A DNA stretch of 64,000 bases from Woeseiaceae bacterium (GTDB taxonomy: Bacteria > Pseudomonadota > Gammaproteobacteria > Steroidobacterales > Woeseiaceae). The position numbers and the translations under genes are program-made. Below are positions 16,527-45,583 of this stretch, piece after piece (the first letter of the stretch is position 1; the number at the start of each line of letters is the position of its first letter). The notes below the pieces were generated by a model. That model was not told the DNA's origin, made no database searches, and saw nothing but the letters and a program-made list of their open reading frames with translations. The stretch is from NCBI GenBank assembly GCA_030066075.1, contig JASJCH010000018.1:1-64000 (forward strand), given 5' to 3'.

Positions 16527-17488
16527 ATATACGCAAGCGCGCGGCCGAGCTGCTGGAGCAAGGCCATTACAATGACCGGCCGAGCCGGATCGTCAACACG
16601 CTGCTGATCGTGCTCATCTCGCTGAACGTGGTCGCTATCTTTCTCGGGTCAGAGGACGACTTCTACGAACAATACCGAGATGCGCTGTGGCTGTTCGAGG
16701 TTTTCTCTGTGCTCGTGTTCACGGTCGAGTACCTGGTGCGAGTGTGGAGCGCCGTCGATCTCCAGGAGTTCGGGGACAGGCGGCCCGTTATCGGACGATT
16801 GCGCTACATGCTCACGCCGATGGCCCTTATCGATCTACTCGCTATCCTGCCCTTCTACCTGAGCCTCTACCTGTCGTTCGATCTGCGTTTCCTGCGCGTG
16901 GTGCGCATGCTGCGGCTGCTCAAGCTGACGCGCTATTCGCCGGCGCTCGGCGCCCTGCTCGATGTCATCCAGCGTGAGGCGGAAGCCTTGCTGGCCGCGT
17001 TCGTCGTGCTGTTGTTGATGCTCGTTTTCTCGGCTTGCGGCATTTACCTGCTCGAAGGGGATACGCAGCCTGAAGTGTTCGGCAGCATTCCGGAATCAAT
17101 GTGGTGGGCTATCGTGACGCTGACGACCGTGGGTTATGGGGACGTTGTCCCGATTACGGTTGGCGGCCAGGTGTTCGCCGGCCTGATCGGACTTATCGGC
17201 ATCGGCATGATCGCCGTGCCCGCCGCAATCCTGGCGTCTGGTTTCGCCGAGTGCATTCACGAGCGGCGCCAGAAATACACGCATCACATCCACGAACTAC
17301 TGCGCGACGGCATCCTGGACGAGCGTGATCGCTGGCTACTCGAGGGGCTGCGACGCGACCTCGGCCTGCGTAGCGACGAGGCCTTGCACCTGATTCGCAA
17401 CATGTTGCACGAGGCAAGACAAACGAAGATGTCGCACTGTCCGCACTGTGGAGAGCATCTTCACGAAGACCAGGTAACGGGCCAGTGA
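16523..17488 (+). CDS. Voltage-gated K+ channel-like ion transporter with C-terminal regulatory tail
   Basis: The 321-residue six-helix channel has an S4-like helix with regularly spaced Arg/Lys (LRFLRVVRMLRLLKLTRY, about 121-138), a pore helix and the K+ selectivity filter TTVGYGD (201-207), then S6 (GLIGLIGIGMIAVPAAILASG). The cytoplasmic tail contains LLRDGILDERDRWLLEGLRRDLGL, resembling the tail of the protein at 6125. It ends in SHCPHCGEHLHED, a small Cys/His cluster that may bind zinc. Tetrameric K+ conductance at the inner membrane is expected from the family. It is translationally coupled to both neighbours (ATGA before, GTGA after). Confidence 0.92.
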   Translation: MNIRKRAAELLEQGHYNDRPSRIVNTLLIVLISLNVVAIFLGSEDDFYEQYRDALWLFEVFSVLVFTVEYLVRVWSAVDLQEFGDRRPVIGRLRYMLTPMALIDLLAILPFYLSLYLSFDLRFLRVVRMLRLLKLTRYSPALGALLDVIQREAEALLAAFVVLLLMLVFSACGIYLLEGDTQPEVFGSIPESMWWAIVTLTTVGYGDVVPITVGGQVFAGLIGLIGIGMIAVPAAILASGFAECIHERRQKYTHHIHELLRDGILDERDRWLLEGLRRDLGLRSDEALHLIRNMLHEARQTKMSHCPHCGEHLHEDQVTGQ

Positions 17489-34888: not shown

Positions 34889-35632
34889 ATGGAACTGCGT
34901 TTTTCCACCTGGCAGGAGGTCGATACCTACCTGCAAGACTCCAGGACAATCATCCTGCCGATAGGCTCGACGGAGCAGCACGGTCCCAACGGGCTGATTG
35001 GCACCGACGCGCTCTGTCCCGAGTCGCTGGCGATTGCGCTGGGCGAAAACACCGGCGCCCTGATCGCGCCCACGATCGCCGTGGGCATGGCCCAGCACCA
35101 CCTCGGGTTCGCCGGGTCTATCACGCTGCGGCCGACGACGCTGATTGCCGTGATCCGGGACACCGTCAACTCACTGGTCCGGCACGGCTTCGAGCGTTTC
35201 TATTTCCTGAACGGCCACGGCGGTAACGTGGCGACGGTGAACGCGGCCTTTGCCGAGATCTACGCCCAGTCCAGCCTGGGCCAGTCGGCGGCGGATCAGT
35301 CGGGCGTGCGCTGCAAGTTGGTTAACTGGTGGGAGGCCGAGGGCGTTATGGCCCTCAGCAAGGACTTGTTTGGCGAAGCGGACGGCAGCCATGCAACCTG
35401 CGGCGAAGTGTCACTGACGCAATTTGTCTACCCGCACAGCATCAAGTCCGCCGAGATGGACCCGCCGATCGCACCGACAGGCCCCATTTACGATGCCGCC
35501 GACTATCGCCGCCGTTTCCCCGACGGCCGCATCGGCTCAAACCCGTCCCTCGCCAATCCCGAGGCGGGTGAGAAACTGTTCAAGCAAGCGCTCGAGGGAC
35601 TCGAGAAAGACTATCGCAAATTTGCGGCCTAG
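34889..35632 (+). CDS. Creatininase family amidohydrolase
   Basis: The 247-residue protein has the creatininase metal motifs: PIGSTEQHGPNG (E29, H31), GTDAL (D40) and FLNGHGGN, with GEVSLTQF near residue 170. These bind two divalent metals. The family includes creatininase, MftE-type peptidases and enzymes acting on cyclic amides; substrate cannot be chosen here. GAGGTG precedes the ATG by 6 bases. The last bases form a CTAG tail-to-tail overlap with sbtB-like gene on the other strand. It is a single gene downstream of the RND operon, separated by 47 bases. Confidence 0.88.
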   Translation: MELRFSTWQEVDTYLQDSRTIILPIGSTEQHGPNGLIGTDALCPESLAIALGENTGALIAPTIAVGMAQHHLGFAGSITLRPTTLIAVIRDTVNSLVRHGFERFYFLNGHGGNVATVNAAFAEIYAQSSLGQSAADQSGVRCKLVNWWEAEGVMALSKDLFGEADGSHATCGEVSLTQFVYPHSIKSAEMDPPIAPTGPIYDAADYRRRFPDGRIGSNPSLANPEAGEKLFKQALEGLEKDYRKFAA

Positions 35633-35931
35633 AATTTCTCCGGCCGCATGATGCCGACGTCGGAGATAAACAGCACCATCGCGTAGTCGCGGTAGTAGTG
35701 CTCCTGCAGGTAGTCGGCGATTTTCTCGGCCATCAGCGCGTCGCAAATCACTTCGACGCGAATATTGCTGCTGGTCGACCAGCCAGCGTCGCGAACGCCG
35801 CGGCTGCCGCGGCCGCGCGCGTTGACGATCGTGTAACCGCTCGCGCCCAAACGATCCAGCGCTTCGGTCAGCTCGTTCTCGAGCGCGGCCTCGGTGACGA
35901 CGGTCAGCAGTTTGAAGTTGCGGTCGATCAT
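35629..35931 (-). CDS. sbtB: SbtB-type PII-like regulator of bicarbonate uptake
   Basis: The start is the ATG at 35931, giving 100 residues; the track start lies inside the permease gene. It has a ferredoxin-like PII fold: FKLLTVVTEAALENELTEALDRLGASGYTIVNARGRGSRG, a T-loop-like GVRDAGWSTSSNIRVEVIC, then EKIADYLQEHYYRDYAMVLFISDVGIM. The arrangement directly after an SbtA-type permease identifies it as SbtB-like. Cyanobacterial SbtB senses adenine nucleotides including cAMP and binds SbtA; this copy ends at PEKF and lacks the C-terminal CGPxGC redox loop of many cyanobacterial forms. It is 13 bases downstream of the permease and is the last gene of the Mrp-Sbt operon. Confidence 0.8.
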   Translation of the reverse strand: MIDRNFKLLTVVTEAALENELTEALDRLGASGYTIVNARGRGSRGVRDAGWSTSSNIRVEVICDALMAEKIADYLQEHYYRDYAMVLFISDVGIMRPEKF

Positions 35932-35944
35932 GGCGTCCGGGCGA

Positions 35945-36883
35945 TCAGGCTCCGTGAAGGCGCTTGGCAATCTCGAGGTAGATCGGGATGCCGACAAAGA
36001 TGTTGAACGGGAATGTTACGCCGAGTGACGCTGTCAGCGATAGGGCGGGATTGGCCTCGGGCACGGCGATGCGCATTGCCGCCGGCGCGGCGATGTAGGA
36101 ACAGCTACCGGCGAGCGTCGCCAGCAGGGCCGTGCCGCCGACCGACAGGTCCAGCGACCAGCCGAGCAGCGCGCCGCAAATGGCGAGAGGGATCGGCGCG
36201 ATCACGCCGAAGGCCACCAGGAATATGCCGCGCTGCAGGATTTCGCGCGCCTGGCTGGCGGCGATCAATCCCATTTCGAGCAGGAACAGCGCCAGTACGC
36301 CCTTGAATGAATCGATGAACAGCGGCTCGAGCGGCTTGATGCCCTCGGGCCCGATGGCCCAGCCGATCAGTAACCCGCCCACCAGCAGCACGATGCTCTT
36401 GCCGAAGAAGATCTCGTGCAGCAGCTTGCCCCAGCGGGTGCCGCTGTGGATGCCGCGCGCCAGCAGGATGCCGACAACGATAGCCGGTACCTCGAGCAGC
36501 ACGAGGAACAGCGCCAGGTGCGGCTCGAAGGCAATGCCGGCGCTCGCCAGGAAGGCCACGGCTACGGCGTAGGTGCCGACGCTGACCGAGCCGTAATGAC
36601 CCGCGATCGATGCGGCATCAGGCCGACCCAGCCGCCCGATATACAGCAGGACCGGGTAGACGAACAGCGGCAGGATGAAGCCCATGGCCAGCACGGCGAC
36701 CATCTGCGGCAGCACCGAGCTCATCTGCTGCTGCGACAGCTCCATGCCGCCTTTGAGACCAATGGCCAGCAGCAGGAGGATGCTCAGGAGCTCGTAGATG
36801 GCCGGAGGCAGGCGCAGGTCGGAGCGCGCCAGGCCGGCGATCAGCCCGAGCAGGAAGAACAGGATGACGGGATCGATAGACAT
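35945..36883 (-). CDS. sbtA: SbtA-type sodium-dependent bicarbonate permease
   Basis: The 312-residue protein has about ten membrane helices in two inverted halves. Family features include FFLLGLIAGLARSDLRLPPAIYELLSILLLLAIGLKGGMELSQ near the N terminus and GLIAASQAREIL and SCSYIAAPAAMRIAVPEANPALSL in the second half. This is the DUF897/SbtA family, a Na+/HCO3- symporter in cyanobacteria; here it is shorter than the roughly 370-residue cyanobacterial proteins. It starts 3 bases after the last antiporter subunit and is followed by an SbtB-like PII protein, so Na+ gradient production and Na+-driven uptake are encoded together. Bicarbonate as substrate is inferred from family and partner. Confidence 0.85.
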   Translation of the reverse strand: MSIDPVILFFLLGLIAGLARSDLRLPPAIYELLSILLLLAIGLKGGMELSQQQMSSVLPQMVAVLAMGFILPLFVYPVLLYIGRLGRPDAASIAGHYGSVSVGTYAVAVAFLASAGIAFEPHLALFLVLLEVPAIVVGILLARGIHSGTRWGKLLHEIFFGKSIVLLVGGLLIGWAIGPEGIKPLEPLFIDSFKGVLALFLLEMGLIAASQAREILQRGIFLVAFGVIAPIPLAICGALLGWSLDLSVGGTALLATLAGSCSYIAAPAAMRIAVPEANPALSLTASLGVTFPFNIFVGIPIYLEIAKRLHGA

Positions 36884-36886
36884 GGG

Positions 36887-38587
36887 CTAGAAGTAATAGA
36901 CCAGGACGTAACCTGTGAGCAGCACGGCAATCCAGAGCGCGGTGCTGCCGATGGGCCAGGTGCGTGCGAACACACCCGGTTTTTCCTTGTTCGCGCCGGT
37001 CGACATGTGGCGTATCGCCAGCGACTGCAGCCGGGACAACAGTGACTGCGTGATCCCCGCTACACCGTTCCCGATCGCTGCTGTCGTTGCCGTCAGCGCG
37101 CGCCCGATCCGGTACAACAGCACGCGCCACAGCCAGTCGGTATCGAGGCTGATGGTCAACGTGCGCTTCATGAGCGGCAGTAGCAGGAAGAACGCCAGGC
37201 CCGAGAACAACAGCAGCTGCGTGTAGAACAGCACCTTGCCAGCCGTGTAGGCCTCGTACTCGACCGGGTAGGGCAGGTACTTGTAGAGCAGTTCGGGCGC
37301 GACACCGAGCAGGATGCAAAGCACCGAGAAGATCACCATCGCCACGCCCATGTTCCACGGCGCGTCTTTCGGGCGCAGCCCGGAGTCCTTCTGGAAGAAC
37401 ACGAACCACGGGAACTTGATGCCCGCGTGCAGGAATACGCCGGCCGAGGCGGCTGCCAGCATCATGTACACGAACGCGAGGCTCTCGTCGGCGGCGGCCT
37501 GCGAGATCATCGTCTTGGTCGTGAAGCCCGATGTCAGCGGGAAGCCCGAGATAGCCAGCGCGCCGATAATGCCGCAGATGGCGGTGAGCGGCATGGTGCG
37601 GAACAGGCCGCCGACCTCGGTGCACTTGTTCATCCCGGTGCGGTAGACGACCGCGCCCGCGCTCATGAACAGCAGCGCCTTGTAAATGATATGGGCGAAC
37701 GCGTGCGCCGCGGCGCCGTTGATCGCCATCTGCGTACCGATGCCGATGGCGCAGACCATGAAGCCGACCTGGTTGACGATGGAGTAGGCGAGGATGCGCC
37801 GTATGTCGTTTTCGAGCAGCGCGTAGATAATGCCGTACATCACCATGAACAGGCCGATACCGATCAGCACCGACTCGCCGGGGAACAACAGGATGAGCGC
37901 GAGCACGGCGGTCTTGGTCGTGAAGGCCGACAGGAACACGGAACCGGTCGGGCTAGACTCCGGGTAGGAGTCAGCGAGCCACGCCGAGACGGGCGGCGCT
38001 GCCGCATTGATCAGGATGCCGATCAGCATCATCCAGGTGTCGAAGTTATTGGCCAGCATCGGCTGCACGTCGATCGAGCCGGTGTGTACGACGACGCCCT
38101 CAATGCCGACCTTGAGGATGACGCCGCCGAGCAGGTGCATCACGGCATAGCGGATGCCGGCCGCACGCGCCGCGGGCGTGCCGCCGCACCAGACCACGAC
38201 CGTCGAGAACAGCGCCATAACCTCCCAGAACAGGAACAGGCTGATCAGGTCGCCGGCAAAGCTCACGCCCACGGCGCCTGCCGCATAGGCGTAGGCCGCC
38301 GCGAGTTCATACCATTTGGCCTGGCGGAAGGCGTAGAGCCCGCCAACCAGCGCCATGCCCGCAAAGATCGTGGCAAACAGGCGCCGTACCGGGCTGCCTT
38401 CGATCGGTTCGATTCGGTAGTCGAGGAACGGCAGCTCCAGCACCACGCCATCGGGCACCTGCCAGACCGCCCAGAGCGTGACCAGCGGCGTGAGGAACAG
38501 CACCGCCGTCCGCGCGTTGCCGCGCGTGACCCCGATCAGCAGGGCGCCGATCAGCAGGTATATCGCAGGAGGTATCAACTCAAACAT
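36887..38587 (-). CDS. NuoL/MrpA-N-like antiporter subunit of the Mrp complex (third antiporter-like subunit)
   Basis: The 566-residue protein has about 14-16 membrane helices. Proton-transfer residues typical of complex I antiporter-like subunits are present: Glu in FLFWEVMALFS, Lys in SAFTTKTAVLAL, His/Lys in HAFAHIIYKALLFMSAGAVV, and Lys in FTTKTMISQ. A C-terminal extension with a long amphipathic stretch (about 470-530) precedes a final helix. It probably supplies the function of the MrpA N-terminal part, which is otherwise absent. It overlaps the small membrane protein gene by 8 bases and precedes sbtA by 3. Confidence 0.85.
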   Translation of the reverse strand: MFELIPPAIYLLIGALLIGVTRGNARTAVLFLTPLVTLWAVWQVPDGVVLELPFLDYRIEPIEGSPVRRLFATIFAGMALVGGLYAFRQAKWYELAAAYAYAAGAVGVSFAGDLISLFLFWEVMALFSTVVVWCGGTPAARAAGIRYAVMHLLGGVILKVGIEGVVVHTGSIDVQPMLANNFDTWMMLIGILINAAAPPVSAWLADSYPESSPTGSVFLSAFTTKTAVLALILLFPGESVLIGIGLFMVMYGIIYALLENDIRRILAYSIVNQVGFMVCAIGIGTQMAINGAAAHAFAHIIYKALLFMSAGAVVYRTGMNKCTEVGGLFRTMPLTAICGIIGALAISGFPLTSGFTTKTMISQAAADESLAFVYMMLAAASAGVFLHAGIKFPWFVFFQKDSGLRPKDAPWNMGVAMVIFSVLCILLGVAPELLYKYLPYPVEYEAYTAGKVLFYTQLLLFSGLAFFLLLPLMKRTLTISLDTDWLWRVLLYRIGRALTATTAAIGNGVAGITQSLLSRLQSLAIRHMSTGANKEKPGVFARTWPIGSTALWIAVLLTGYVLVYYF

Positions 38588-38846
38588 CGTCGTCCCCCTC
38601 GGCGTAGTAGTCCTCGTCGCGTTTCAGGAAGAAACCGAGACCTTTGGCGACCAGCACCATCGCCAGGCAGGACAGGAAGCCGAACACGGCGCCGAATGCG
38701 AACCAGCCGTCCACGCCGAAGTAGCCTTTGACGCTGATAAAGACCTGCGCGAGCACGGTCAGCGCCAGCACGACCGCGAATACGCGCCAGAGCAGCTTGA
38801 TGGTCGTAGGCCTCGCCAGCCAGTGATCGTCAGCGTTCGGTTTCAT
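38580..38846 (-). CDS. Small two-helix membrane protein in the Mrp operon
   Basis: The ATG at 38846 shares one base with the stop of the preceding subunit (TGATG); the longer ORF in the track extends into that gene. The 88-residue protein has two membrane helices (about 18-38 and 46-66), and its C-terminal tail is charged (KRDEDYYAEGDDDV). It is not MrpF, G or C, all of which are present elsewhere in the operon. Possible roles are an assembly or regulatory subunit of the complex; I do not recognise the family. Confidence 0.75.
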   Translation of the reverse strand: MKPNADDHWLARPTTIKLLWRVFAVVLALTVLAQVFISVKGYFGVDGWFAFGAVFGFLSCLAMVLVAKGLGFFLKRDEDYYAEGDDDV

Positions 38847-40315
38847 CAGGACATACCCGCCACGACCTGGCGCTCGAGTTCGAGTACCGGTCCGTTGAAA
38901 AAGAAAAAGGCGAGCGTGAGCAGAGCGGTTAGCGCCAGCGCCAGCACCGCGGGCCACGGGGCTTCGCCATGCGGTTTCGCCGGGGGCTCGGTCTCACGCA
39001 TGAACCACGCCATGTAAATGATCGGCAGGAAGTACGCTGCGTTGAGCGCCGTGCTCAGGATAATGGTCATGATCGCGACGTAGTTGTCGGCCTGGAAAGC
39101 GCCCGCAAGGATGTACCACTTCGACACGAAGCCGGCCGTTGGCGGAACGCCGATCATGCTGATGGCGCCGATCGTGAATGCGGTCATCGTTATCGGCATG
39201 CGATAGCCGATGCCCTTCAACTGCCACAGCTCGGTCTTCTTCGCCGCCACGTAAATGGCGCCGGCCGCGAAGAACAAGGTGATCTTGCCGAAGGCGTGCG
39301 CAACGATATGAATTGCCGCGCCGATCTCGGCCAGCGGCTTCAGTATGGCCGCCGCCATGACGACGTACGATAGCTGCGCGACCGTGGAGTAGGCCAGCAG
39401 GCGCTTGAGATTCTGCTGCCGCAGCGCGACCACGCTGGCCGCGATGATTGTGAACGCGGCCGCATAGAGCAGCCATCCGCTGCCGACGGCGCCAAACAGG
39501 TTGTCGACGCCGAAGATATACACGATGACCTTGGTGACCGTGAAGACGCCGGCCTTGACGACAGCCACAGCGTGCAGCAGCGCGCTGACCGGGGTGGGGG
39601 CGACCATTGCCGCCGGCAGCCAGCGGTGCACCGGCATTACGGCGGCCTTGCCGATGCCGAATACGAACAGCGCCAGCAGCAGGCCGACGGCGGGTCCCTC
39701 GAGCTTGCCGGCCAGGATGCCGCCCAGGACGAAGTCGCCAGTGCCGGCAACCGAATAGGTCCAGATAATGGCCGGCAGGAACAGGCCGATTGACGTCGCC
39801 AGCAGGATCCCGAGGTAAACGCGCGCCGAGCGCACCGTCGCCGCGTCGCCCTTGTGCGAGACCAGCGGATACGTGGCGAGCGTAAGAATCTCGTAGCACA
39901 GGAACAGCGTGAACAGGTTGCCGGCGAATGCAATGCCCATCGTCGCGGCGAGCGACACGGCGAACATCACGTAGAAGCGCGTCTGGTTCTTCTCGTTGTT
40001 ACCGCGCATGTAGCCAATGGAGTAGATCGAGTTGATGATCCACAGACCGGATGCCAGCGCGGCGAACAGCATGCCCAGCGGTTCCACTGTGAACGCAATG
40101 CTGATGCCCGGCAGCACCTCGGCCAGCGTGACGCCCGGGCGGCCACCGTCCATGACATAGGGCACGACTTGCCAGACCGTGTAGGCGAGGCCGCCTGCCG
40201 TGACCAGCGTGACCGTTTCACGCAGGTTGGCGCTGATGCGTCCCGCGAGGGCGATGCCGAGTGCACCAACGAGCGGCAGTGCAAGCGCAATCAGGATCGC
40301 GTTCTGCGCGGTCAT
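38846..40315 (-). CDS. mrpD: MrpD-like antiporter subunit (second)
   Basis: The 489-residue protein has about 14 membrane helices. It carries the antiporter-subunit signatures LFLCYEILTLATYPLV (Glu), HRWLPAAMVAPTPVSALLHAVAVVKAGVFTVTKV (with both Lys residues) and HIVAHAFGKITLFFAAGAIYV. The family exchanges or translocates H+ coupled to Na+ within Mrp complexes. It overlaps the first MrpD-like gene by 4 bases (ATGA). Two such D-type subunits in series is not the classical A-B-C-D-E-F-G layout. Confidence 0.9.
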   Translation of the reverse strand: MTAQNAILIALALPLVGALGIALAGRISANLRETVTLVTAGGLAYTVWQVVPYVMDGGRPGVTLAEVLPGISIAFTVEPLGMLFAALASGLWIINSIYSIGYMRGNNEKNQTRFYVMFAVSLAATMGIAFAGNLFTLFLCYEILTLATYPLVSHKGDAATVRSARVYLGILLATSIGLFLPAIIWTYSVAGTGDFVLGGILAGKLEGPAVGLLLALFVFGIGKAAVMPVHRWLPAAMVAPTPVSALLHAVAVVKAGVFTVTKVIVYIFGVDNLFGAVGSGWLLYAAAFTIIAASVVALRQQNLKRLLAYSTVAQLSYVVMAAAILKPLAEIGAAIHIVAHAFGKITLFFAAGAIYVAAKKTELWQLKGIGYRMPITMTAFTIGAISMIGVPPTAGFVSKWYILAGAFQADNYVAIMTIILSTALNAAYFLPIIYMAWFMRETEPPAKPHGEAPWPAVLALALTALLTLAFFFFNGPVLELERQVVAGMS

Positions 40316-41799
40316 TGCACGTGCCCCAGCAGGATGTCAGCGGCGGTCGCGGACAGCGCCAGCGGTAACTCGGGCGCGATACCAAAGCCGATGTTGGCGA
40401 TAGCGACGGCCCAGAGGATAACGACAAGCGCCATCGGGACTCGCGCAGGCTCGTCGCTGGTGGGCTCGCCGAAGTAGGCCGCTTCGACGATGCGCCAGAT
40501 GTACACGACGGCCATCAGCGAACTGACGAGAATCAGCGCGACCAGCGCCACGCCGCCGGTCTCGAGTTCCAGCGCGGCGTTGATCAGGTACCACTTGCTG
40601 ATGAAGCCCGCCGTGCCGGGGATGCCGATCAGGCTCAGGCCCGCGACGACCAGCGCGGCAAACGTCCAGGGCATGCGGCGCGCCTGTCCGGCGATGTCGC
40701 TCAGGCGGCTGCCGGCTACGACCATCGCGACGGCGGCGATAGCGAGAAACAGCCCGCCCTTGGCCAGCGCGTGGTTGAACATGTGCAGCGTAGCCGCTGT
40801 CAGGCCGGTTGCCGTGACCAGGCTGGCGCCGAGCATCATGTAGCCGATCTGGGCCACCGACGAGAACGCCAGCATGCGCTTGATATTGCGTTCGAACATG
40901 GCCACGGCGGAGCCGACGAGAATGCCGAGTATCGCCAGCGGCATCAGGTAGGCCGCGAACTGGAACTCGTGGCCGATGAGGTTCTGCTGGAACACGAAAA
41001 AGTCGAAGCGCAGCAGCACGTAGAGAGACACCTTGGTCGCACAGGCGGCGAGGAAGGCAGTCACGATGTGCGGCGCGTAGGTGTACGCATTCGGCAGCCA
41101 GACGTGCAGCGGGAAGATGGCGGCTTTGAGCGCAAGGCCGACCGTAATGAACCCCGCGGCGGCGAGGATCGGTTTCTGGTCAGCCACTTCGTGCACGCGC
41201 AGCTCCATGTCCGCCAGGTTCAGCGTGCCCGTCATCATGTAGATCAGGCCGACCCCGATCAGGTAGAACGTGGCGCCGATCGTGCCCATGATCAGGTACT
41301 TGAACGTTGCCGGTAGCGCACGACGGTCCGGTCCGCCGGCAACGAGTACGTAGCTCGCCAGCGACGAGATCTCCATGAACACGAAGATGTTGAACGCGTC
41401 GCCTGAGACAACGATGCCGGCCATGCCAGCGAGTGCGAGCAGCCAGGCCGCAAAGAACAGCGGCTCGCGGTCTTCCGAGATGATTGCAGCCAGGCTCTCG
41501 CGGCCGCCGATCAGCGCCACGCTGGACGCGCCGGTAACGAGTAGCAGCAGCAGCGCGGTCAATGCGTCAACGTGTAGTTCGATGCCGTAGGGCGCCGCCC
41601 AGGACCCCATCTGGTAGGTCATGGGGGTACCGCCGATCACGATCATCGTGAGCTGGATCGCGATCGCGAACGCGAGCAGGCTCGTCGCCGTCGCCGCGGC
41701 CCACGGCAGGCTGCGCGCGCGCAACAGCACGACGAACGGCGCCATGAGCATCGGCACGATGACCTGCAGTGCGGGCAAGTGTGGCGTCAGCGCGTTCAC
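40312..41799 (-). CDS. mrpD: MrpD-like antiporter subunit (first)
   Basis: The 495-residue protein has about 14 membrane helices with IFVFMEISSLASYVLVA (Glu), HVWLPNAYTYAPHIVTAFLAACATKVSLYVLLRF (Lys) and HMFNHALAKGGLFLAIAA. It is the closest of the three antiporter-like subunits to classical MrpD, judged by the YTYAPHIVTAFLAACATKV stretch. Its start overlaps the MrpC stop and its stop overlaps the next subunit (ATGA both times), so stoichiometric production is likely. Confidence 0.9.
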   Translation of the reverse strand: MNALTPHLPALQVIVPMLMAPFVVLLRARSLPWAAATATSLLAFAIAIQLTMIVIGGTPMTYQMGSWAAPYGIELHVDALTALLLLLVTGASSVALIGGRESLAAIISEDREPLFFAAWLLALAGMAGIVVSGDAFNIFVFMEISSLASYVLVAGGPDRRALPATFKYLIMGTIGATFYLIGVGLIYMMTGTLNLADMELRVHEVADQKPILAAAGFITVGLALKAAIFPLHVWLPNAYTYAPHIVTAFLAACATKVSLYVLLRFDFFVFQQNLIGHEFQFAAYLMPLAILGILVGSAVAMFERNIKRMLAFSSVAQIGYMMLGASLVTATGLTAATLHMFNHALAKGGLFLAIAAVAMVVAGSRLSDIAGQARRMPWTFAALVVAGLSLIGIPGTAGFISKWYLINAALELETGGVALVALILVSSLMAVVYIWRIVEAAYFGEPTSDEPARVPMALVVILWAVAIANIGFGIAPELPLALSATAADILLGHVQ

Positions 41800-42146
41800 C
41801 GGCGGTCCATCTCCTGGATCTCGTCTTCCTCGATGGAGCCGTACTCTTCCTTGATGCGCACGACGAGGCCGAGGCCCAGCGCCATGGTCGAAATGCCGAC
41901 AACGATGGCGGTCAGGATCAGCACCTGCGGCAGCGGGTTGGAGAAGGTCTCGGCGCCGTAGCCGAAGATCGGGGCGCTGGCGCCTTCCACGTTACCCATC
42001 GTGATGTACAGCAGGAACACGGCGGCCTGGAACAGCGACAGGCCGATCAGCTTCTTGATCAGGTTGAGCTTCGCGATGACCGCGTAGAAGCCGATCATCA
42101 GCAGGATCGCGAATACCCAGTAGTGGTAGATGCCGAGAATGTCCAT
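41796..42146 (-). CDS. mrpC: Mrp complex subunit C (NuoK-like)
   Basis: The 116-residue protein has three membrane helices with the NuoK/MnhC pattern: ILLMIGFYAVIAKLNLIKKLIGLSLFQAAVFLLYI and DPLPQ-like segment NPLPQVLILTAIVVGISTMALGLGLVVRIKEEYG. Its Glu/Lys-bearing C-terminal tail extends into the cytoplasm. It lies 3 bases after the MnhB-type gene and overlaps the following MrpD start by 4 bases. Confidence 0.92.
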   Translation of the reverse strand: MDILGIYHYWVFAILLMIGFYAVIAKLNLIKKLIGLSLFQAAVFLLYITMGNVEGASAPIFGYGAETFSNPLPQVLILTAIVVGISTMALGLGLVVRIKEEYGSIEEDEIQEMDRR

Positions 42147-42149
42147 GCC

Positions 42150-43115
42150 CTAACGACCCCGCGCCGCGAATGCGTGGAAGATGCTCAACAACACGCCGGT
42201 GACCGTAAGACCGACGCCGGCTTCGATCAGAATAATGCCCAGCTGCTGCCCCTTGACCGGGTCGTCGGACAGCACCGAGTAGTCGAGGAAATTTCCGCCC
42301 AGCAGCATGCCGGCGACGCCGACCGCGCCATAGAGAATGGCGCCACCGGCCGTCAGGCCAAGCAGCACGGGCCGCGGAATGACCTTGAGCGCCTTCTCCT
42401 CACCCTCGAGCAACGCGTACAGGATGATAGCTGCCGCGATGATCGCGCCGGCCTGGAAGCCTCCGCCGGGACCGTACTCTCCGTGGAACTGCACGTAGAG
42501 GCCGAACAGCAGGATGAACGGAATCAACAGGCGGCCGACAACGCGCGGGATCAGGTGCTGGCTCAGGCCGACGTTCGAGCTCGGGCGCTTGCCGCCGGGG
42601 CCGCCTGCCAGCAGGAACAACACGCCGATGCCGGCCGTGAACACGACGAGCACCTCGCCCAGCGTGTCGTAGCCGCGGAAGCTGCCGAGCACGGCCGTCA
42701 CCACGTTCGGGATATCGATGAATTCGCGGGTCTTGTCGAGGTACCAGGGCGCAACATACGTCTGTGTCGGCGCATCCGGGGAACCGAATGCCGGCTTGTC
42801 GAACGTCGCGTAAATCACGACGAGCGCCGCAGCCGTCACGACCGCCATCGACAGGGCCTTGCGCGAGGTAGGGGACTTTTCGCGATCGGACGTCAACGCA
42901 AGCGCGCCGAGGAACAGCACCGTCGATATGCCGGCGCCGACGGCTGCTTCGGTGAGCGCGACGTCGGCCGCGTCCAGCAGGAAGAAGTTGGCCGCAATCA
43001 GCAGGCTGGCAATGCCCAGCAGCATCACCGCAACGAACAGGTTCTTCGTGCGCACGATGGCAACCGCCGTGATCAGCAGCAGCGTGAGCAGGAAGATGCC
43101 GAATACCACCGTCAC
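42150..43115 (-). CDS. mrpB: Fused DUF4040 (MrpA C-terminal part) and MnhB-type subunit
   Basis: The 321-residue protein combines two Mrp modules. Residues about 1-75 match the MbhD/DUF4040 domain that ends classical MrpA (LLGIASLLIAANFFLLDAADVALTEAAVGAGISTVLFLGAL). The part from about 185 to the end is MnhB (RLLIPFILLFGLYVQFHGEYGPGGGFQAGAIIAAAIILYALLEG). Between them, FIDIPNVVTAVLGSFRGYDTLGE corresponds to the MbhE-like segment. The large N-terminal antiporter part of MrpA is not attached; the NuoL-like protein at 36887 may replace it. The start overlaps MrpG by 4 bases. Confidence 0.9.
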   Translation of the reverse strand: MTVVFGIFLLTLLLITAVAIVRTKNLFVAVMLLGIASLLIAANFFLLDAADVALTEAAVGAGISTVLFLGALALTSDREKSPTSRKALSMAVVTAAALVVIYATFDKPAFGSPDAPTQTYVAPWYLDKTREFIDIPNVVTAVLGSFRGYDTLGEVLVVFTAGIGVLFLLAGGPGGKRPSSNVGLSQHLIPRVVGRLLIPFILLFGLYVQFHGEYGPGGGFQAGAIIAAAIILYALLEGEEKALKVIPRPVLLGLTAGGAILYGAVGVAGMLLGGNFLDYSVLSDDPVKGQQLGIILIEAGVGLTVTGVLLSIFHAFAARGR

Positions 43116-43444
43116 GACGCACCATCCTTGTCGGTCGTCGTATCAATGCCCGGCTTGTTGCCGGCGAGCCGCGCCGCCGCGGCGAGTGCGTTGGACGCCG
43201 TGGGGCTTGTCAGCAGCAGGAACAGCAGGATGGCCGCGAGCTTGATCGTGGCGAGCGAGAGCCCGGCCTGCAGCATGATGCCGCCGATGACCAGGATCGC
43301 GCCGATGCTGTCGGTGACGCTCGCAGCATGCATGCGGGTATAGAGGTCCGGCAGGCGCAGCGCGCCGATTCCGCCAATGAGCACGCTGATGCCGCCCAGC
43401 GTCAGCAGCACCCAGCTCAGGATGTCGAGCACGGTATCCGTCAT
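43112..43444 (-). CDS. mrpG: Mrp complex subunit G
   Basis: The 110-residue protein has three membrane helices and the MnhG pattern LGGISVLIGGIGALRLPDLYTRMHAASVTDSIGAILVIGGIMLQAG. The LPDLYTRMHAAS segment is diagnostic. Overlaps MrpF upstream and the DUF4040/MnhB gene downstream by 4 bases each. Confidence 0.93.
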   Translation of the reverse strand: MTDTVLDILSWVLLTLGGISVLIGGIGALRLPDLYTRMHAASVTDSIGAILVIGGIMLQAGLSLATIKLAAILLFLLLTSPTASNALAAAARLAGNKPGIDTTTDKDGAS

Positions 43445-43722
43445 TGCCCGGCTCCCTCTTCTGCTTCGCCGCGACTGGTGCGGGTGCGGAAGAACTCGAG
43501 CACGGCGAAGACGCCGATGAAATTGATCAACGCATACGCGAGCGCCAGGTCCAGGAAGTCCGGCCGGCCAAACAGGAACGCGATGACCGAGACGAGGAGT
43601 ACCGTCTTCGTGCCGAACATGTTCACGGCCAGTACCCGGTCGTAAACCGAGGGTCCGATGACGGCCCGCGCCAGGGCGAGTCCCATCGTGACCAGCGTCG
43701 CGAGTGTGACTGCGTAATACAT
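43441..43722 (-). CDS. mrpF: Mrp complex subunit F
   Basis: The 93-residue protein has three membrane helices and the MnhF motif ARAVIGPSVYDRVLAVNMFGTKTVLLVSVIAF, followed by FLDLALAYALINFIGVFAVLEFF. It starts 2 bases after MrpE and overlaps MrpG by 4 bases. Confidence 0.93.
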   Translation of the reverse strand: MYYAVTLATLVTMGLALARAVIGPSVYDRVLAVNMFGTKTVLLVSVIAFLFGRPDFLDLALAYALINFIGVFAVLEFFRTRTSRGEAEEGAGQ

Positions 43723-43724
43723 GC

Positions 43725-44246
43725 TCAGTCCTCGTGAATGGCGGCCACGCGCCGCAACATTTCGCCTTCTTCGAGCGCAGCGGCGCCCTCGGCCGTCAGC
43801 GCATGCACGAGCAGGCGACCATCGGAGGCATCCAGGGTCAGCGTGCCGGGCGTCAATGTGATGGAGTTGCCGAGCAGTACCTGGTCAACAGGGGAGAGCT
43901 GGCTGGCGTCGATTTCGATGACCTTTGTCGATAGCCGCAGGTCGCGCGACAGCACGATGCGCGCAACCTCCAGGCTCGACTTGACGATCTCCTTGAGCAG
44001 CCAGCCCCAGAATGCAATGACGCGAAGATTGAAGCGCAACGCGAACACGCTGGTGTCGAAGTAGCCCATACGAATCGCGATCAAGGCGGCGACGGCACAG
44101 GAGAACACGCCCAGGCCCAGGAGCAGCGGCTTGAACATTCCCGACCACAGTACCCACGCCGCGATCAGCAGCGCTATGAACAACAAATAGGCGCTGAAGT
44201 GCCCGGCGCCGCCCGGCGCCGTTGGTTTGTCAACGGGTTGTTTCAT
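43725..44246 (-). CDS. mrpE: Mrp complex subunit E
   Basis: The 173-residue protein has two membrane helices (about 20-58), then a cytoplasmic domain with the MnhE pattern FWGWLLKEIVKSSLEVARIVLS and LLGNSITLTPGTLTLDASDGRLLVHAL. Its ATG overlaps the TGA of the Rap1a/Tai-like gene (ATGA), which makes that gene part of the same operon. It is the first recognisable Mrp subunit in transcription order; classical operons start with A. Confidence 0.93.
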   Translation of the reverse strand: MKQPVDKPTAPGGAGHFSAYLLFIALLIAAWVLWSGMFKPLLLGLGVFSCAVAALIAIRMGYFDTSVFALRFNLRVIAFWGWLLKEIVKSSLEVARIVLSRDLRLSTKVIEIDASQLSPVDQVLLGNSITLTPGTLTLDASDGRLLVHALTAEGAAALEEGEMLRRVAAIHED

Positions 44247-44707
44247 TCTTCCTCGGTTGCGTCGCAGGGGAACTGCATGCGCAAAGTGGCGTAGACGAAG
44301 TCCCTGGCAAGCGGCTGATTGACGACACGATCGGCGTTTTCGAGGTCTGCAACCACCAGCTCGACGACGGTCCTCAACGGCACGGGCTCGCCCAGGCAGA
44401 ACTCGGCGTAATACGTTTCGAAGCGCTCAACGCGGCGGCCGAGGCGGGTCCGCGTAGCGCGCTGGCTGAACGACTCGCTGGCCTCGTACTCGGCGGACAC
44501 GTTGTTGGTGACGCGCTCATCGGTCGCGACCGCGCCGTCGATGAAACCCTGGATGTAACGGACGCAGAACACGCCGTCGACGCTTTCGGGTTGCTCCTCG
44601 TAATAGATGCAGTGCGACACCAGCTCTTCCGTGGACAGAGCTTCCACGGCGTTGGCGTTAGACAATGCCAGTAGGGCAAGGCCACAAAGAATGAATACTC
44701 GGTACAT
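44243..44707 (-). CDS. Exported Rap1a/Tai-like protein within the Mrp-Sbt operon
   Basis: The 154-residue protein has a signal peptide (MYRVFILCGLALLALSNANA). The mature domain shows four Cys and the Rap1a/Tai arrangement: LVSHCIYYEE, FCVRYIQGFIDGAVATDERV, YYAEFCLGEPV, RDFVYATLRMQFPCD. In that family some members are periplasmic immunity proteins against type VI effectors, but no effector or secretion genes are present here, and many members are of unknown role. Its coupling to mrpE suggests a periplasmic accessory function for the complex (inference). It lies 21 bases after the regulator gene. Confidence 0.75.
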   Translation of the reverse strand: MYRVFILCGLALLALSNANAVEALSTEELVSHCIYYEEQPESVDGVFCVRYIQGFIDGAVATDERVTNNVSAEYEASESFSQRATRTRLGRRVERFETYYAEFCLGEPVPLRTVVELVVADLENADRVVNQPLARDFVYATLRMQFPCDATEEE

Positions 44708-44728
44708 TTCGGTCTCCCCAGCCCGACC

Positions 44729-45067
44729 TCAGCTCGACATGCGGGCGTTGTAGTTGGCGTGTTCTTTCTCCAGGCGCCGCACACGGGCGGGCGACAGGAT
44801 GGTTTCCAGTAGCTCACCGACCGTGCAGTGTTCCTCCAGCGGATGCCGCAGGTGAACGCTGGTGTCGATGATGTATGAATTGCGACGGCCGTGTTTCTCA
44901 CGACTCAGGATGCCGGCCTCGTCAAGGTGGCTGATGAGCCGCTGCGCGCTGCGCTCGGTGATGCCGACCCGTTCCGCGACCTCGCGCAATGTGGCCTCGG
45001 GCGTCTCCGCCAGGCAAACCAGCACGTGCGCGTAGTTGCTAAAAAATGTCCAGTGCGAATCTGTCAC
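44729..45067 (-). CDS. Winged-helix (MarR/ArsR-like) regulator heading the Mrp-Sbt operon
   Basis: The 112-residue protein starts at GTG (45067). It has a helix-turn-helix (about 25-55, ATLREVAERVGITERSAQRLISHLDEAGIL) and wing (SREKHGRRNSYIID), followed by a helical tail. This small stand-alone winged helix lacks an obvious ligand domain. As the first gene of the operon, with repeats just upstream, it is a likely autoregulator of the Mrp-SbtAB genes. The signal could be Na+, pH or inorganic carbon; nothing in the sequence decides this. Confidence 0.85.
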   Translation of the reverse strand: MTDSHWTFFSNYAHVLVCLAETPEATLREVAERVGITERSAQRLISHLDEAGILSREKHGRRNSYIIDTSVHLRHPLEEHCTVGELLETILSPARVRRLEKEHANYNARMSS

Positions 45068-45214: not shown

Positions 45215-45583
45215 TTAGACGTTGGCCGCGGGATAGCGGCCGAAAACGTGGAATTTCTGCGGAACGCGCGCCTCGGCGACCTGCTTCGAGCGCTCGAGTT
45301 GGCGGTCTACGGCGCGCGCCGAGTCCGAGATACTGCGGCGAATGGCTGCGTAGAGGTTGTCGTCAACAATCTCGGCTGCCAGCGCGCGGTGATTGCGCAG
45401 GTCAACGCGCACAACCGCTTTCATGTCGTAGCGGTCGCGGGTTTGGTGAATCGCCTCGAGTCGTGCGTCGACCGAGACGATCTCGTCAGCCACATGGCCG
45501 AACTCATTGCGCAGCGTGTCTTCCACGTACTCGCAGATGTCGTCGGTCAGTTGCACGTTGTAACTGCTGGTCGAGATGATCAT
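45215..45583 (-). CDS. Ribosome hibernation promoting factor (HPF/RaiA family)
   Basis: The 122-residue protein has the HPF fold: an N-terminal strand MIISTSSYNVQLTDDICEYVEDTLRNEFGH, a strand VSVDARLEAIHQTRDRYDMKAVVRVDL and a helix EIVDDNLYAAIRRSISDSARAVDRQLERSK. It lacks the long C-terminal dimerisation domain, so it is the short type that binds the 30S decoding centre in stationary phase. It has an independent position between the DevBCA operon and the Mrp promoter, 52 bases after the ATPase gene. The specific subgroup (HPF or RaiA) is not resolved. Confidence 0.85.
   Translation of the reverse strand: MIISTSSYNVQLTDDICEYVEDTLRNEFGHVADEIVSVDARLEAIHQTRDRYDMKAVVRVDLRNHRALAAEIVDDNLYAAIRRSISDSARAVDRQLERSKQVAEARVPQKFHVFGRYPAANV

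Follow-up and report, generated by a model that had tools for sequence, protein, structure and literature searches.

The window analysed here is the first 64,000 nucleotides of contig JASJCH010000018.1 (GenBank assembly GCA_030066075.1) of a marine Woeseiaceae bacterium, and within it thirteen consecutive minus-strand genes (positions 35629-45067) bring together a Mrp-type antiporter, a permease of the SbtA superfamily and a PII-like protein. Their families were confirmed by profile searches with Pfam and NCBIfam. The run begins with a winged-helix (wHTH) regulator of HTH_IclR/MarR-like type (44729-45067; Pfam HTH_IclR, 5.6e-07) and a secreted Rap1a-domain protein (44243-44707; Rap1a, 9.9e-10), followed by MrpE (43725-44246; MNHE, 3.2e-25), MrpF (43441-43722; MrpF_PhaF, 3.6e-15) and MrpG (43112-43444; PhaG_MnhG_YufB, 2.5e-22, with TIGR01300 above its cut-off). 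The next gene (42150-43115) fuses the MbhD and MbhE domains (DUF4040), i.e., the C-terminal part of MrpA, to MnhB/MrpB (MnhB 2.2e-28, MbhD 1.6e-17, MbhE 1.4e-06; PRK12507 above cut-off). MrpC (41796-42146; Oxidored_q2, 4.7e-24, NCBIfam subunit C above cut-off) precedes two antiporter subunits, the first of MrpD type (40312-41799; Proton_antipo_M, 4.2e-60) and the second of MrpD/MrpA-N type (38846-40315; Proton_antipo_M, 6.6e-55, together with Proton_antipo_N). A small membrane protein of about 87 residues (38580-38843, start ATG at about 38843), for which no Pfam or NCBIfam match was obtained, stands before a third, NuoL-like antiporter subunit, NuoL3 (36887-38587; PRK12668, NCBIfam NF009310 at 664.6 bits against a cut-off of 564). 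The last two genes encode the Sbt_1 permease of non-cyanobacterial class (35945-36883; Pfam Sbt_1, 8.5e-115, 383.7 bits against a cut-off of 27, residues 5-306) and the SbtB-like PII protein (35629-35931, start ATG at 35931; P-II, 5.9e-23).

The intergenic distances, in gene order, are +21, -4, +2, -4, -4, +3, -4, -4, -4, -8, +3 and +13 bases, and the original prediction, made from the sequence alone, was exact on the thirteen genes and on junctions of -8 to +21. The layout suggests that the whole run is one transcript. It is preceded by 147 bp of non-coding DNA, and the 3' end of sbtB abuts a convergent creatininase gene. At the NuoL3-sbtA junction the stop and start codons are three bases apart (TAG CCC ATG), and no obvious Shine-Dalgarno element was read there in front of sbtA. 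A simple promoter and terminator scan of the whole stretch yielded no match to a sigma-70 promoter; the terminator-like sites that it gave were only at chance level, and none of them lay at this junction. Gene content and spacing bear out the proposal that a Mrp complex, a Na+-coupled anion permease and a PII-like regulator share one predicted operon.

The Mrp set is complete, as subunits B, C, D, E, F and G, the MrpA C-terminal (MbhD/MbhE) domains and an MrpA-N-like antiporter subunit are all encoded, and the antiporter-type (Proton_antipo_M) subunits number three. The single long MrpA of the group 1/2 form is not present; MbhD/E are fused to MnhB and the antiporter part is a separate gene. 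Judged by its genes, this is a split-MrpA complex of group-3-like order, and group-3 clusters are described as having an irregular gene pattern with split MrpA (PMC5703873). Na+/H+ exchange is its predicted activity. In relatives, NuoL3 is normally the final gene of this Mrp operon; among 396 genomes of the order its orthologues have 46-82% identity. The regulator has partners of 54-74% identity in five relatives (G425, G718, G629, G494 and G468) and is conserved in front of relatives' Mrp operons, the Rap1a gene holds the same place in the same five, and the small membrane protein is kept between antiporter subunits 2 and 3 in many genomes, its partners in relatives being 43-78% identical. 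Assignment of the NuoL-like subunits to DabB or to complex I was rejected, because the operon contains no DabA and NCBIfam places NuoL3 in an Mrp equivalog. In the NuoL3 tree, members of the genus are scattered among other families, which indicates that the Mrp operon moves and that its association with sbtA is not simply one inherited block.

The permease has a full-length Sbt_1 fold (SbtA superfamily, TC 2.A.83), and Slr1512, the cyanobacterial SbtA, is the single protein of known structure related to it by sequence. A sibling permease of 95% identity is encoded on contig JASJBB010000112.1 (L045). The HCO3- contacts of Slr1512 are Ser114, Tyr140, Ser324 and Ser327 (PMC8352866), to which Ser101, Leu127, Ser262 and Ala265 correspond in the window, so two of the four are kept. 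Two sharply distinct pocket classes were found in an alignment of 125 sequences. The pocket FGASYDSSDS belongs to Slr1512 and two proteobacterial paralogues (L043 and L168), and YGSSxESSYA to the window permease (YGSSLESSYA) and nearly all others, about 120 members, one of which has F for the first Y. Slr1512, L043 and L168 also form a separate clade in the permease tree, with support of 1.0. The genus members G403 (L043) and G526 (L168) hold both pocket classes, and in these genomes the second, cyanobacterial-class SbtA has its own PII-like gene. By sequence, the window permease belongs to a sister class of cyanobacterial SbtA, and 'SbtA' is a family-level rather than an orthologue-level name. 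The identity first given to it stands for the Sbt_1 family and fails for the Slr1512 clade, outside which the permease falls with a changed substrate pocket.

What this class carries is suggested by its surroundings. DabA adjoins a window-class permease in Nitrosomonas (L069) and Verrucomicrobiaceae (L117), a SulP gene does so in Nitrosospira (L086), and the downstream same-strand neighbours of 32 window-class permeases included purE in nine cases and a beta-carbonic anhydrase gene in three. Bicarbonate is a substrate of PurK, which works together with PurE. These neighbours together point to inorganic carbon. In Nitrosomonas communis (L069:9995-20945) and a Verrucomicrobiaceae metagenome-assembled genome (MAG; L117:555-7014), sbtA stands with both DabA and NuoL-like genes of DabB type. 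Transport of dissolved inorganic carbon (DIC) is known for SbtA-family proteins of sulfur-oxidising Proteobacteria that have little identity to the cyanobacterial transporters (PMC6689103, PMC12628692), and Escherichia coli lacking carbonic anhydrase is rescued by either of two Thiomicrospira pelophila Sbt proteins, which also accumulate DIC (PMC12628692). Because of the neighbours, the beta-carbonic anhydrase pattern described below and the T. pelophila rescue, bicarbonate is our best guess for the substrate.

The PII-like protein adjoining sbtA has as its closest solved relatives Thermus TTHA0516 (1.6e-21) and then the SbtB protein Slr1513 (1.2e-14). Its T-loop is about 4-5 residues shorter than that of Slr1513, and it ends in RPEKF, with the C-terminal CGPxGC redox motif found in some SbtB proteins not present. 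By analogy with the cyanobacterial pair, it may dock on the permease and sense adenine nucleotides.

To see how general the arrangement is, 29 Mrp loci were read from last-subunit orthologues across the 396 genomes (26 of them with 0.9-1.5 kb behind NuoL3), as well as 80 named GTDB sbtA loci with up to 10 kb per side and about forty more. The order Mrp, sbtA, sbtB was found in no other genome (none of the 29 Mrp loci or of the roughly 120 sbtA loci has it), and the other sbtA-sbtB loci are free-standing pairs without this Mrp operon in front. The order is not conserved and is known only from this genome, the outcome that by the original prediction's own terms was to count against a conserved module. 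In the genus mate G629 the two are inverted neighbours, where the wHTH-Rap1a-Mrp operon is directly preceded, on the same strand, by sbtA-sbtB together with a DUF4124 gene and one other gene. The Mrp and sbtAB modules have met in two different orders within one genus. The distance between them is no more than 12 kb in four of the 27 genomes carrying both, G629 included, where about 0.2 would be expected, the 12-kb limit having been set after the data were seen. The place behind the Mrp operon is taken by a Na+/Ca2+ exchanger, 18-24 bases away, in G629 and G494, and by a NavBac channel in G576 (loci L190:17410-18366, L191:8123-9070 and L198:6450-7283), and most other Mrp loci have no clear cotranscribed gene behind NuoL3.

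A NavBac-type voltage-gated Na+ channel is also encoded immediately before sbtA(-sbtB) at six of the sbtA loci, the same genus accounting for five (L193:7292-9371, L192:8299-10516, L175:5128-7760, L195:2435-4863, L196:7863-9146 and L046:656-3195). Its filter is TLESWSM where read, an S30AE/HPF-like gene usually precedes it, and NavBac-sbtA-sbtB is a possible channel-symporter-PII operon. Another Ion_trans channel-like domain is encoded elsewhere in the window (16586-17257). HPF-like genes, only distantly alike, are found next to the sbtA or Mrp loci of several relatives; in the window, an S30AE/HPF-like gene (45215-45583) lies just upstream of the run. Since relatives show the order HPF-(NavBac)-sbtA-sbtB, insertion of the Mrp operon between an HPF gene and sbtA was considered, and it was not supported, the window HPF being about 27% identical to the sbtA-linked ones.

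Beyond gene order, the Mrp and SbtA modules are statistically linked. The 73 genomes of the genus include 12 with this type of Mrp and 12 with SbtA, and the two sets share 10 members (hypergeometric 7e-9). When only the 31 better genomes are counted, 9/10 SbtA carriers have Mrp and 0/21 of the others do (5e-7). Across the 396 genomes of the order, with 37 and 63 carriers of the two modules, the overlap is 27 (1e-16), and it is 17 when the genus is set aside (8e-10). All of these statistics ignore shared descent and a common salt or alkali niche. The functional link first proposed between the two modules is supported by this co-occurrence. Beta-carbonic anhydrase is absent in 6 of the 12 SbtA carriers of the genus against 5 of the 61 others (p 0.002; 0.02 in the better genomes); in total 11 of the 73 genomes had no match to it, and these are enriched among SbtA carriers.

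The host genome, which its 95% identical neighbour on JASJBB010000112.1 places in the Woeseiaceae, is a MAG of 2.58 Mb in 114 contigs, 79.7% complete, in which no RuBisCO large subunit, no beta-carbonic anhydrase and no antiporter or complex-I antiporter subunit outside the operon was found. That no RuBisCO turned up agrees with the published record, in which the enzyme is known from no more than a minority of the MAGs of Woeseiaceae (PMC12175321). The picture of a heterotrophic or mixotrophic host is supported, and of the carboxylation sinks once envisaged, ordinary carboxylases (PurK, acetyl-CoA carboxylase and phosphoenolpyruvate or pyruvate carboxylase) are more likely than RuBisCO. Genes of the NqrB/RnfD family occur at four places in the genome, so that Mrp is not necessarily the sole Na+ exporter; the Mrp complex foreseen as the Na+-gradient generator is there in full, and only its exclusive role is unsupported.

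On balance, we consider it rather probable that in this lineage a group-3-like Mrp operon has been joined at its 3' end to sbtA-sbtB for Na+/HCO3- import, with Mrp re-exporting the Na+. In such a system Mrp would expel Na+ using the proton gradient, and a trimeric Sbt permease would import HCO3- together with Na+. The PII-like protein would dock on the permease and close it according to adenine nucleotides. The Na+ entering with bicarbonate would be removed by Mrp, and co-expression would balance cytosolic Na+ and pH. The imported bicarbonate would go to the biosynthetic carboxylases of a host in which neither beta-carbonic anhydrase nor RuBisCO was detected. Gene content, order, spacing, families and co-occurrence of the modules are observed directly; the single transcript, HCO3- as the substrate, the coupling, the regulation by SbtB and the physiological role are what we infer from them. 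A wider reading, which we put forward tentatively as a real possibility, is that Woeseiaceae and relatives share a recurrent modular Na+ cycle supplying bicarbonate in non-phototrophs, with Mrp as exit, NavBac or Na+/Ca2+ exchangers as further routes and a PII-gated SbtA-like entry, encoded in varied gene orders and able to replace carbonic anhydrase, and of which the window would be the most compact, single-operon form.

Several points weigh against the import reading. Two of the bicarbonate contacts of Slr1512, Tyr140 and Ser327, are Leu and Ala in the window permease, and the T. pelophila Sbt pair is not assigned to either pocket class. The Mrp-sbtAB order is unique, and the contig of the 95% identical sibling begins inside sbtA and neither confirms nor refutes the junction. 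The host genome holds other candidate Na+ pumps in its NqrB/RnfD-family genes, at 79.7% completeness its gene absences are weak, and the co-occurrence may reflect descent or niche, as noted above. The uniqueness of the order also favours the doubtful, though serious, alternative that sbtAB is a fortuitous neighbour, dropped by a rearrangement behind a mobile Mrp operon and riding on its transcript with no joint function, the 3' end being a variable cargo slot. The mixed families of the NuoL3 tree and the changing or mostly missing occupants of the slot agree with it as well, but every cargo seen in that slot is linked to Na+, and even at separate loci the two modules share genomes far more often than expected by chance.

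It is unlikely, in our view, that the permease carries another anion or an organic acid with Na+ and that Mrp supports that uptake instead. The pocket shared by about 120 class members and differing from that of Slr1512 and the two paralogues would suit another substrate, and the presence of both classes in G403 and G526 suggests divided roles. However, DabA, beta-carbonic anhydrase, purE and SulP as neighbours of the class, the retained Ser101 and Ser262, and DIC transport by distant family members from sulfur-oxidising Proteobacteria (PMC6689103, PMC12628692) speak for bicarbonate. An assembly artefact joining two unrelated pieces between NuoL3 and sbtA seems very improbable. The source is a MAG, the sibling contig breaks off inside the first 20 sbtA codons and the sibling genome has no NuoL3 match, but both genes are complete across their three-base gap, GC, GC3 and codon bias are even over the junction, which speaks against a crude chimera, and the genes downstream are syntenic with the sibling.

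The idea that Mrp serves SbtA is an existing proposal, and the new element here is its single-operon form. In Synechocystis one NdhR/CcmR regulon takes in sbtAB and, as a separate operon, the Mrp-like mnh genes, and Na+ export for SbtA-driven HCO3- uptake was proposed there (PMC4390856, PMC3401165), a role called tentative (PMC4390856). That regulon resembles the window in its Mrp-like complex, proposed to expel Na+ for SbtA. It differs in belonging to a phototroph and in placing two separate operons under a single LysR repressor, whereas the window, from a non-phototroph, has one operon that includes a small wHTH gene of its own. As the cyanobacterial case rests on the co-regulation of two operons, a single non-phototroph operon offers one clonable cassette for testing whether Mrp powers SbtA. 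The genus pattern, in which Mrp and SbtA occur together and beta-carbonic anhydrase is absent more often, suggests that in heterotrophs of marine sediments Na+-coupled import of bicarbonate may take the place of its production by carbonic anhydrase. Our literature search found no paper on a Mrp-sbtA operon, on SbtA in Woeseia or on SbtA with a bacterial sodium channel.

Among known systems, the group-3 Mrp clusters (CPA3; Aphanothece mrpCD1D2EFGAB and Synechocystis mnh slr2006-2013) share the split or duplicated antiporter subunits, the irregular order and the E-F-G-B-C-D subunits, to which the window operon adds three antiporter-type subunits, the small membrane protein, the wHTH-Rap1a leader and the 3' sbtAB. 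Cyanobacterial SbtA-SbtB (Slr1512-Slr1513) is likewise an Sbt_1 permease gene followed by a PII-like gene, with the equivalents of Ser114 and Ser324 kept, whereas the window pair belongs to a separate clade and has the Tyr140-to-Leu and Ser327-to-Ala changes, the shorter SbtB T-loop, no CGPxGC and the Mrp-fused operon. The DIC-accumulating DAB/MpsAB complexes of autotrophs and heterotrophs also pair a NuoL-like membrane subunit with bicarbonate supply, but the window operon has no DabA (PF10070) and its NuoL-like proteins are Mrp subunits. In alkaliphilic Bacillus, Mrp and a NavBac channel are a known pair, in which Na+ re-entry through the channel or Na+/solute symporters serves pH homeostasis (PMC4225499). 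This Mrp-NaVBP cycle has the same combination of Mrp and a re-entry route, although the window Mrp is encoded with an anion symporter as that route; NavBac stands before sbtA itself in relatives. Taken together, the window holds an unusual and so far single-genome arrangement of known modules rather than a new system.

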